A model generated the notes under the pieces. It saw only the letters and a list, made by a program, of their open reading frames with translations, did no database searches and had not been told where the DNA came from. The position numbers and the translations under genes were made by a program. Of a stretch of DNA of 64,000 bases, positions 23,025 to 25,188 are shown in pieces (within the stretch, counting starts at the first letter, position 1; the number at the start of each line of letters is the position of its first letter). Origin of the DNA: Acinetobacter sp. (GTDB taxonomy: Bacteria > Pseudomonadota > Gammaproteobacteria > Pseudomonadales > Moraxellaceae); assembly GCA_031277915.1 (NCBI GenBank), contig JAITLL010000062.1:1-64000 (forward strand), in the 5' to 3' direction.

Positions 23025-23173
23025 TCTAGACATTGGGTTAAATTTAAAAATACTGGTTTATATAATATTTAAAACAATAATTTAGTTAATCTAATGAAAT
23101 ACAAAAAGAATTTTAAAAACTTGGCATAAATTCCACATTGACACTTCTAAACTCTCAGATTAAGCTTTGCATG

Positions 23174-23400
23174 CTGGCCTACATTGCCAGGTGGTTTTGA
23201 CAGACCACATACGACCGCATCAGAGTTTTCCCTTCTGAGGGATGATTCTGTGTGTAAGCTCCTCGTCTCCTCCCGTAGCGGTAGGACGGGAGAGGGACAC
23301 CTTCGGGTGTGCTGGCGTCGTACCAGTCTGTCAACCCTCTTTCGTTCTGCCACCATAATTATAAATTAATGCTTTGGCAGAACTCCCAATATAAGGAGTT
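23174..23400 (+). ncRNA. Structured RNA candidate resembling phage C4/CI-type antisense leaders
   Basis: Several compatible stems are visible: CTGGC/GCCAG (23174-23190); a long-range 9-bp pairing TTGACAGAC (23197-23205) with GTCTGTCAA (23326-23334); within it TCAGA/TCTGA, CTCCCGT/ACGGGAG (23270-23292) and a UUCG-capped ACACC/GGTGT (23297-23310). Then TTCTGCCA/TGGCAGAA (23345-23382) and AACTCC/GGAGTT (23381-23400), the last hiding a ribosome binding site. From memory the layout resembles the C4 antisense RNA of phages P1/P7 and P4 CI RNA; that family assignment is inference. Frames across it have odd composition and are probably not coding. Confidence 0.45.
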
Positions 23401-23404
23401 GGCT

Positions 23405-23434
23405 ATGCATACTATTTTTATACCACCAGATTAG
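23405..23434 (+). CDS. Nine-codon reading frame behind a sequestered ribosome binding site
   Basis: ATG 23405 encodes MHTIFIPPD then TAG. AAGGAGTT lies six bases upstream, the best ribosome binding site in this gap, but is paired in the AACTCC/GGAGTT stem. It could be a leader peptide or the surviving start of a decayed gene. Coding status is uncertain. Confidence 0.3.
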   Translation: MHTIFIPPD

Positions 23435-23630
23435 TCTTTAACAGGGTTTGATTACTTTTGAGTTTTCAGACTTTAGTTCGTCACGACTAAAAAATCATAT
23501 CAACTATAAAATTTGAGATGCGTTAGGGCAGTCTTTGGAGCCTTTGCATGCTTTTTTTGCCTAAAGCAAAAGTTGCAGCCGTTTTATCTCATTTAGACAC
23601 AACAACAAATTATTTTATAACGGTACATAT

Positions 23631-24194
23631 ATGCCATATTCAGATCTCTCATTTCGCGCTCTAAGTGCGCTACATAAGTCTCGCTATCTTTTTAGTAAAC
23701 ATGGTTTTCACACCCTTGGTGTAGACCGTATTATAAAAGAAGCCGAGGTGTCAAAAGCCTCGTTTTATAACTATTTCCACTCTAAAGAGCGGCTGATTGA
23801 AATGTGCTTAAACTTTCAAAAAGATGCTCTAAAAGAACAAGTGATCTCGATCATTTACATACAAAAAGATTTGAGTTTACGTGAAAAGCTAAAAGCGCTT
23901 TTCTTTTTACATACTTATTTAGATGGTAACTATTACTTGCTCTTCAGGGCTATTTTTGAAATTGAAAAAATTTATCCTGCTGCCTATGACGTAGTTGTGC
24001 AGTACCGAAACTGGTTCATAAATGAAACTTATCATTTGCTTTTGGCAAGTAATGAAGATGCCATCCAAAAAGATGCCTATATGTTTTTGTTCGTGATGGA
24101 TGGGGTAATTATTCAGCTACTAGATGAAAACAGGGGAGATCAGCGAGAGTTGCTGCTAGAGTATATTTTAAAGGGTATTTTGCTTAATGATTAA
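23631..24194 (+). CDS. TetR-family transcriptional regulator
   Basis: The 187 residues include an N-terminal TetR helix-turn-helix (TLGVDRIIKEAEVSKASFYNYFHSKE, about residues 27-52) and a helical ligand domain without recognisable specificity. Ribosome binding site is weak and the frame is open about 20 codons upstream of the chosen ATG. It follows the structured non-coding region and faces a second TetR gene; no obvious target operon adjoins it, so its ligand is unknown. Confidence 0.85.
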   Translation: MPYSDLSFRALSALHKSRYLFSKHGFHTLGVDRIIKEAEVSKASFYNYFHSKERLIEMCLNFQKDALKEQVISIIYIQKDLSLREKLKALFFLHTYLDGNYYLLFRAIFEIEKIYPAAYDVVVQYRNWFINETYHLLLASNEDAIQKDAYMFLFVMDGVIIQLLDENRGDQRELLLEYILKGILLND

Positions 24195-24422: not shown

Positions 24423-24995
24423 TTAAGCAGCTACACATGCTTGAGTTGTTTCAAGTAAAATCAGTTTGTTTATATAAGACCATGTTTGTTCAGCATTAAT
24501 TTGTGTCTTGTTTGTAGTGCCATCAATAATAAGCCCATCAATAATGTTAAGAAAAAGGCTGCTTAACACTTCAGGACTTTCAATGTCTAGTTCTACAAAT
24601 GTTGATAAAACTAAGCTAAAAACCCATTCACGATATTTATTAATTTGGTTTTTAAGAGAGGGATAAAGTTGTATGACTTCAATGGTCGCTTTTTTAAATA
24701 AACAGCCATTAAAGTCTTCAGTATTAATCCAGTCGATATACCAATTAAAAATATTTTTAAGTTTATTTAATGGGTTATCGATTTTATTAACTTTATCTAA
24801 TAAAGAAGCTTGGACTTCTAAATTCCTTTGATAAAGACATTCCTCAATTAAATTTTCTTTAGAAGAGAAATACTTATAAAAAGTCATTTTTGCAACGTTG
24901 GACTCAGCAATAATTTTATCAACTCCAATAGAGGTGTAACTTTTCTGATTAAAAAGGTTCATTGCTGTTGTTATAATCGTTTCTCTTTTTGACAT
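24423..24995 (-). CDS. TetR-family transcriptional regulator
   Basis: The 190 residues start at MSKRETI; an ATG five codons earlier is possible, but a GGGG lies upstream of the chosen one. The HTH is SIGVDKIIAESNVAKMTFYKYFSSKE. The C-terminal half belongs to the general AcrR/TetR type, with LFKKATIEVIQLYPSLKN. It is divergent from the gene at 25326 across 330 bases of AT-rich DNA that include an imperfect inverted repeat, so control of that gene and of itself is plausible. Confidence 0.85.
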   Translation of the reverse strand: MSKRETIITTAMNLFNQKSYTSIGVDKIIAESNVAKMTFYKYFSSKENLIEECLYQRNLEVQASLLDKVNKIDNPLNKLKNIFNWYIDWINTEDFNGCLFKKATIEVIQLYPSLKNQINKYREWVFSLVLSTFVELDIESPEVLSSLFLNIIDGLIIDGTTNKTQINAEQTWSYINKLILLETTQACVAA

Positions 24996-25188
24996 TGGTT
25001 GCCCCGTCATAGATATTTTTTGATTAACTTCGCTATTGTAAAGTATGAAAGCTTAAATAAAACTTATTTTATGATATTTAAAAAATCATATTTATTCAAT
25101 AGGTTGGTTTATTTTAAAAAGTGTAAAAATGTATATTTTATTGCTAATAGTTTAATTTTTTAAATAATATTAATTAATCCATTGATTT

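Follow-up and report, generated by a model that had tools for sequence, protein, structure and literature searches.

C4-type RNAs are known from phages P1 and P4, and the upstream site of P4 takes part in transcription termination. The c4-icd-ant region of P1 (AF234172) is annotated in the order a1, b1, C4, a2, b2, icd, ant, with a1/b1 as putative target sites, and the C4-type CI RNA of P4 immunity (X51522) is matched by the C4 model with 74.9 bits. In A. baumannii AB5075, 21 C4-like Group 1 sRNAs have been described in which the C4 part is far more abundant than the upstream part of the full-length sRNAs; the C4 RNAs, whose processing was inferred from RNA-seq, mostly start at GGW, two transcripts excepted, and the portion of the report available to us draws no link from these sRNAs to TetR leaders, a1b1 sites or a downstream short ORF (Weiss 2016, PMC5320573).

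The same bacterium possesses 11 related TetR regulators (TTTRs) and one pseudogene in the context of the VIR-O/translucent switch, and four TTTRs, activated stochastically, singly or combined, drive switching from opaque to translucent (Perez-Varela 2022, PMC9802203). According to the part of that report at hand, there is little cross-regulation among TTTRs, three show no autoregulation by their own protein, and primers were sited between the mapped start site and the ORF; C4 is not mentioned in this part. A literature search, with most subscription papers and supplements outside its scope and its sources available in part, returned no paper that puts C4 before TetR genes in Acinetobacter. The RNA class is already known (Weiss 2016); its architecture, its linkage to TetR genes and the self-specific barcodes described here appear to be new.

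Results

A C4 RNA in the leader of a TetR gene

The window, by which we mean the whole 64-kb stretch of DNA analysed (contig C26 of a 3.48-Mb genome in 83 contigs), contains one over-threshold Rfam match, a C4 antisense RNA. A first-pass annotation of this DNA had suggested C4-type antisense control and proposed the covariance search that returned this match; it had also held that no intact target gene follows and that the element might be an orphan regulator. The C4 type stands, on the covariance match, on compensatory changes among copies and on likeness to P1, but the orphan without a target does not: an intact TetR gene lies at 23631-24194 with the unit as its leader, and the genome contains 25 C4 copies, this one included. 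As read from the sequence, the unit comprises a promoter-like site, an a1b1 target, the C4 RNA, an SD-sequestered short ORF and the TetR gene, in this order. Its parts are listed below, with names that follow P1 (a, TTGACAG/CTGTCAA; b, the barcode of the hairpin loop).

23138..23166, + strand: probable promoter, TTGACA (23138-23143), 17 nt, TAAGCT (23161-23166), read by inspection
23174..23190, + strand: Region 1 hairpin CTGGC(CTACATT)GCCAG, 97.5% of cells paired in 24 copies
23191..23208, + strand: hairpin presenting target site a1 (TGACAGAC, 23198-23205), stem GTGGT/ACCAC by eye
23210..23216, + strand: target site b1 (TACGACC), the barcode that the C4 hairpin loop complements
23270..23276, + strand: arm A (CTCCCGT), alternative partner of the C4 5' arm that excludes the C4 fold (permutation test, pair counts)
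23274..23357, + strand: C4 antisense RNA (RF01695), 59.2 bits against a gathering score of 45
23316..23322, + strand: C4 hairpin loop b' (CGTCGTA), the barcode (tests of a1b1 pairing with loops)
23326..23333, + strand: C4 joining strand a' (GTCTGTCA) (pairing tests, pair counts)
23376..23386, + strand: arm E (GGCAGAACTCC), partner of the C4 3' arm and of the Shine-Dalgarno sequence (C x E permutation; 98.2% of cells paired)
23393..23400, + strand: Shine-Dalgarno sequence (SD) of the short ORF, inside a local anti-SD stem
23405..23434, + strand: short upstream ORF of 9 codons (MHTIFIPPD), from sequence and orthologue alignment
23515..23560, + strand: terminator-like region, an imperfect hairpin then a T run (23552-23558), read from sequence and fold
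23631..24194, + strand: TetR-family regulator of 187 aa, the gene served by the leader (PF00440, 1.9e-12; paralogue family)

The candidate promoter is absent from the output of a consensus scan; its TTGACA is conserved in orthologues, where TATCCT or TATGCT takes the place of the second hexamer.

The stems noticed in the first pass are present. The predicted fold of the leader (23169-23420) has an energy of -94.6 kcal/mol (z -4.86, 0/200 shuffles as good) and that of the C4 core (23274-23368) -40.7 kcal/mol (z -4.98, 0/200). The UUCG-capped hairpin was found at 23297-23310, and the 9-bp long-range pairing corresponds to 23197-23205 with 23326-23334, which includes a1 and its partner strand (23326-23333). 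Among the 24 copies both sides of this helix changed at 4 of the 7 counted pairs, with 99.4% of cells paired, and one pair shows G-C, C-G and A-U. Counting a1:a' and Region 1, the C4 fold has 38 pairs, with 99.0% of cells paired and 12 pairs changed on both sides; compared with 500 shuffles, the fold gave 0/500 on four of five measures and 165/500 on the fifth (further pair types). The C4 stem, the tetraloop hairpin and the loop hairpin are backed by compensatory change. The loop motif of the Region 1 hairpin also appears in the available part of Weiss 2016 (PMC5320573). The GGT at 23280 fits the GGW start of C4-like RNAs, and by analogy the 5' cut by RNase P in the window's C4 would be expected at this GGT (23280-23282).

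The arms of the C4 stem take part in a four-arm chain of predicted helices, in which arm A (23270-23276) pairs with the C4 5' arm (B), B with the C4 3' arm (C), and C with arm E (23376-23382). A:B and B:C are mutually exclusive, as are B:C and C:E. Own copies beat permuted ones for each of A:B, B:C and C:E (0/100000 each), whereas the control A:C fails (84598/100000); the differences are small (for A:B, own -20.3 versus -18.5) because the arms vary little. Both sides of the A:B helix changed at 4/7 pairs, with 89.6% of cells paired. As a whole, the alternative fold has 96.3% of its cells paired and two-sided changes at 10 pairs (2/500 shuffles as high), with pair types not above those of shuffles (500/500). 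By reading, A, B and C differ jointly from the window in A. seifertii and A. baumannii.

C4 copies and TetR genes in this and other genomes

This locus shows synteny with A. nosocomialis (85.7% over 3.6 kb) and with A. seifertii, where two pieces, of 2.2 and 1.3 kb, match at 86.7% and 86.8%. Over residues 1-172 the TetR protein shares 77-78% identity with A. baumannii records; judged from sequence similarity, the genome belongs in or near the calcoaceticus-baumannii complex. When its 26 C4 places were aligned, similarity in the part of the alignment listed extended past C4, via the SD-led short ORF and about 190 nt, to the protein start. Seventeen of the 25 over-threshold copies precede TetR genes of ~185 aa, five (L004, L009, L013, L014 and L021) precede a protein of ~94 aa, two lie at contig ends (L001, L019) and one is a tandem extra (L018, upstream of L002); the 26th match, below threshold, is L026, upstream of L005. 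Looked at from the genes, 17/18 full-length TetR paralogues (at least 40% identical to the window's, itself counted) have a same-strand upstream C4, and the distance from C4 end to TetR start is 281-317 nt in paralogues and 273 in the window copy. The C4-less exception, C40:4304, has by reading lost the front of the leader and retained its end, and two further TetR fragments lie at contig ends. The TetR genes that come next in similarity, 29-35% identical along most of the protein, have by coordinates no C4 before them; one of these is a second, less similar TetR gene in the window (24423-25010, - strand), which is convergent to the first.

The ~94-aa proteins form a second class of host genes behind C4 leaders. 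By eye, four of the five have a lipobox-like Cys near the N-terminus, with four invariant cysteines further on, and a Pfam search of two gave no match; a PAAR-like ORF, also seen by eye, comes after L009. The TetR of L007 seems mosaic by eye, its DNA-binding half resembling one subgroup and the rest another. In L002/L018 and L005/L026 a degenerate extra C4 lies just upstream of the leader, and the L026 loop finds its best match among the genome's 24 leaders in the L005 leader (-27.6).

A scan of one genome per species (84,980 species) with the TetR alignment gave 297 relatives, and the best 80, which were retained, are all from Acinetobacter; A. calcoaceticus DSM 30006 is among the carriers of these units. 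Rfam detected a same-strand upstream C4 in 79 of these best 80, at 269-337 nt (median 297) before the start. By reading, the 80th locus, L098, has a truncated C4, with foreign sequence in place of its front that is also found in L046; this insertion-sequence-like end removes the promoter together with a1b1, and the cut falls at nearly the same position in the two species. In a set of 58 genomes, made up of the window's own and others from its genus and order, 37 have C4; three besides the window's own have 20-22 matches and the others 0-8. For genomes reached via four of the 80 loci the counts, at E up to 1, are 23, 20, 24 and 19, the second being that of G059. Since G059 is probably the same genome as G007, given identical coordinates, six genomes (G000, G004, G007/G059, G008, G058 and G060) have 20-26 C4 matches each, and G061 has 19.

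In L058 (687-860), L063 (603-858) and L075 (589-844), Rfam shows two or three C4 units arrayed in tandem, without a1b1, upstream of the TetR leader. Each unit has a different loop, and several loops resemble the main barcodes of other species' orthologues. As candidates for targeting other leaders of the same genome, such arrays gave mostly no convincing match in five genomes; one good array-leader match was seen by eye (L183 with the L179 leader). Among phage records, 30 matched the leader sequence and 24 matched the TetR protein, and we rejected true phage carriers, since among the matches listed (15 each) all are contigs named Acinetobacter phage MD-2021a, which we take to be bacterial DNA. 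The phage-labelled records CAKLQF02 and CAKLQH02 and the plasmid-labelled NZ_CP104448, NZ_CP077849 and NZ_CP064203 (3.7-4.1 Mb) look like bacterial chromosome sequence.

Each leader is matched to its own C4

The segment upstream of each C4 complements two exposed parts of it, the joining strand a' and the hairpin loop b'. For 24 leaders of the genome (L018 and L026 were left out of the 26), own a1b1 x loop pairing averaged -26.6 kcal/mol against -16.0 kcal/mol for others' (0/100000 permutations, which, like all permutations here, ignore relatedness), and the own pairing was best in 21/24 rows. With b1 and the loop alone the values were -10.2 against -4.4 kcal/mol (0/100000), own best in 17/24; the window copy is one of the seven exceptions, since its b1 pairs with its own loop at -7.6 and a better score comes from two other loops. 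The 24 leaders have 23 different loops, and the single pair that shares a loop differs in the joining strand. Among outside loci, 76 of 79 were parsed (without L046, L057 and L074) and gave -26.9 against -17.4 kcal/mol (0/20000), with own best or tied in 56/76 rows and 38 different loops. A blind scan of all segment pairs in 16 leaders ranked a1b1 x loops first by a wide margin. The a1b1 of each leader is predicted to fit the C4 loops of the same copy far better than loops from elsewhere in the set.

Orthologues tell the same story at closer range. The leaders of the window, A. seifertii and A. nosocomialis share 94% mean column identity, yet they have three different barcodes, each best to itself, and two A. 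baumannii records carry the A. seifertii barcode. On this comparison, barcode and partner changed together in the A. seifertii, A. nosocomialis and A. baumannii orthologues.

Two leader designs

Leaders fall into more than one design with respect to what lies downstream of C4. The design test parsed 93 of 100 leaders (without L038, L106, L002, L009, L013, L014 and L021). In 21 of the 93 the short ORF begins MRT, and in this class the C4 loop complements the SD of the short ORF (b2; -15.5 versus -9.8, 0/20000, n=21), while an a2 site (TTTAGCAG or TTTGACAG) in the C:E loop tracks the joining strand (-9.0 versus -8.4, 43/20000). The MRT class has the layout of P1 and, by eye, also that of P4. The b2 pairing was -5.3 versus -5.2 (614/20000) in the HIH class of 53 leaders and -5.1 versus -4.4 (100/20000) in a mixed class of 19, which contains the window and the MRT-like L068. 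The window itself has a b2 energy of -2.5, and a P1-type downstream a2/b2 over its RBS was not found; nor did the segment-pair scan, whose 16 leaders are all of window-like design, or the b2 test reveal any comparable downstream a2b2 target in the window's class. Sites resembling b2 were seen by eye in L002 (AACAAAGGAG) and L098 (ACACACAAGGAG).

The first-pass annotation had placed the AAGGAGTT of the short ORF in an AACTCC/GGAGTT stem. This stem is present, and in a test that used 91 of the 93 parsed leaders, an anti-SD of at least 5 nt adjoins the SD in 69/71 leaders outside the MRT class against 1/20 in the MRT design. In the window's design a2/b2 are gone, with a local anti-SD in their place, and the C4 loops match the upstream a1b1 of the same RNA, not the SD. 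A second candidate anti-SD, AGCTCCT at 23257-23263, had been put forward as pairing with the SD over 7 bp; we dropped it, as it is not conserved (a complement of at least 6 nt near there in 6/71 leaders outside the MRT class and 2/20 inside) and the window copy offers 5 Watson-Crick nt.

In a tree of TetR proteins with 97 rows, the leader label (one label being the mixed group, and those of L002 and L098 assigned by hand) changes 11 times where 3 changes would suffice, and therefore leaders and genes have probably recombined.

The nine-codon frame that had been noted at 23405-23434 is conserved as MHTIFIPPD* in A. seifertii and A. nosocomialis; by reading, two A. baumannii records keep it with two residues changed, one with a GTG start. 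Selection on the peptide was considered and rejected for the 18-codon class (55 distinct), in which variation was lower at third positions than at first and second ones (0.30 versus 0.46 and 0.32 bits), which gives no sign of coding; the 30-codon class weakly resembles coding sequence (0.72, 0.59, 0.85; 17 distinct). An intrinsic terminator is strong in some paralogues and was likewise rejected as a universal part: a strict finder reported it in 19/96 leaders against 1/288 shuffles. The window's terminator is weak (z -0.65 for 23435-23640) and was missed by both terminator scans.

Discussion

Comparison of sequences establishes the leader position of the element, its C4 family, the self-matched a1b1 and the mutually exclusive predicted folds. 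We read the element as a TetR 5' leader built on a P1/P4-type C4 module, in which the self-matched C4 keeps its own regulator OFF, and put the probability of this reading at about 0.6. Gene-specific antisense self-repression is then the likely function, and its sign, repression, would follow that of P1/P4 by analogy. RNase P would free the C4 RNA from the leader, and the freed RNA could pair with a1b1 on other transcripts of its own gene; expression would then halt before TetR, by premature termination or by lost leader translation, leaving the regulator OFF. Should one leader escape its own C4, only that gene would turn ON, and each regulator would be silenced separately because nearly every copy has its own barcode. 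Several findings count against this scheme: the window's class is without a2/b2, therefore the best-known C4 target is gone; the terminator-like hairpin of the window copy is poor, therefore Rho or translation may matter more; own pairing was not best in every row; and one measure of the pair counts was no higher than in shuffles. Azithromycin raised the activity of the ABUW_1645 gene set, as reported in the part of PMC10878099 available to us, an effect that would suit a translation-sensing leader. SrvS, an sRNA that raises TTTR switching, was tried as an antiterminator or sponge pairing with the leaders and rejected, its best shared pairing across 6 leaders (-19.0 kcal/mol) being no better than chance (-22.4 kcal/mol, s.d. 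1.7, for 12 shuffles); in a coarser test 1/10 windows fell more than 3 s.d. below its 12 shuffles.

The covarying, mutually exclusive helices formed by arms A, B, C and E would also be expected of an RNA switch acting in cis only, in which the leader fold is picked by pairing of a1b1 with C4 inside one molecule and no free C4 acts in trans, and the cis fold is indeed the predicted minimum. We nevertheless regard this as unlikely: C4-processed RNAs are abundant in AB5075, as far as the available portion of Weiss 2016 (PMC5320573) tells, in the sister MRT class b2 lies at the SD, which is the P1 arrangement, and some C4 units are without an upstream a1b1. Weiss 2016 (PMC5320573; portion available) deemed trans regulation of bacterial mRNAs potentially the more likely role, and variable loops and high abundance, both taken from that portion, would fit C4-like sRNAs that regulate various host mRNAs in trans and for which the TetR-side location is the birthplace only. 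Such free regulators would have no need of loops that co-vary with the adjacent leader, and we hold this account to be improbable. Homology to P1/P4 and truncated copies or leaders (L018, L026, L027) notwithstanding, it is scarcely credible that these are remnants of prophages, C4 immunity units in decay that no longer serve a function, when pairing is preserved while sequence changes, intact TetR genes lie downstream, and C4 matches are so numerous in all seven genomes named above.

Self-repression of TetR regulators by their own C4 would connect with the TTTRs. From 12 TTTR gene numbers (one a pseudogene), with positions that assume 1.005 kb per gene, the mean distance to a Group 1 sRNA was 12.4 kb against 102 kb at random (0/20000); over seven scales, with positions likewise assumed from gene numbers, six gave values of at most 0.00025 and 1.035 gave 0.024, and two TTTRs have the same nearest sRNA under these assumed positions. 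We infer that the C4-led TetR genes may be the phase-switch TTTRs (Perez-Varela 2022). If so, two unexplained findings in the same bacterium merge, the C4 sRNAs without known targets and the stochastic TetR regulators, the latter being regulators that change colony type and virulence. With C4 as their leader, the OFF state, the gene-by-gene independence and the lack of TTTR cross-regulation would gain a testable RNA mechanism, and a phage immunity RNA would have been captured and multiplied as a host gene switch. A wider scheme, somewhat less probable than even, is a combinatorial bet-hedging system throughout the complex, with ~20 TetR genes each under a private barcoded C4, independent or combined escape, paired exchange of barcodes and tandem arrays that act in trans; trans action of the arrays on other alleles has little support within single genomes.

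Among described systems, the Group 1 sRNAs of AB5075 resemble the window unit in RNA family, in the Region 1 loop and in a GGW at the expected start, and the window's TetR is like the TTTRs in belonging to a related TetR family with the TetR N-terminal domain. P4 has an upstream c4-a1b1 match just under the gathering score (44.1 versus 46.7), unlike the window, which has none at E up to 1; by reading, TTCACAGGAGG, complementary to the loop, stands in P4 shortly before an ATG, and P4 differs in having a single C4 unit in a phage. P1 and the window are alike in their upstream a1/b1, their C4 RNA and a downstream ORF with an RBS, and the a1 core TTGACAG is identical. P1 also pairs its own a1b1 with the loops (-24.8 kcal/mol, 1/200 shuffles as good) and can form the alternative A:B stem (-23.9 versus -14.5 for shuffles, 0/200) and B:C (0/200), its C:E pairing being no better than chance (30/200). 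The window differs from P1 in having a local anti-SD and no a2/b2, in serving, after a 9-codon ORF, a TetR gene and not icd/ant, and in belonging to a genome whose paralogous units, about 20 in number, differ in barcode almost without exception.
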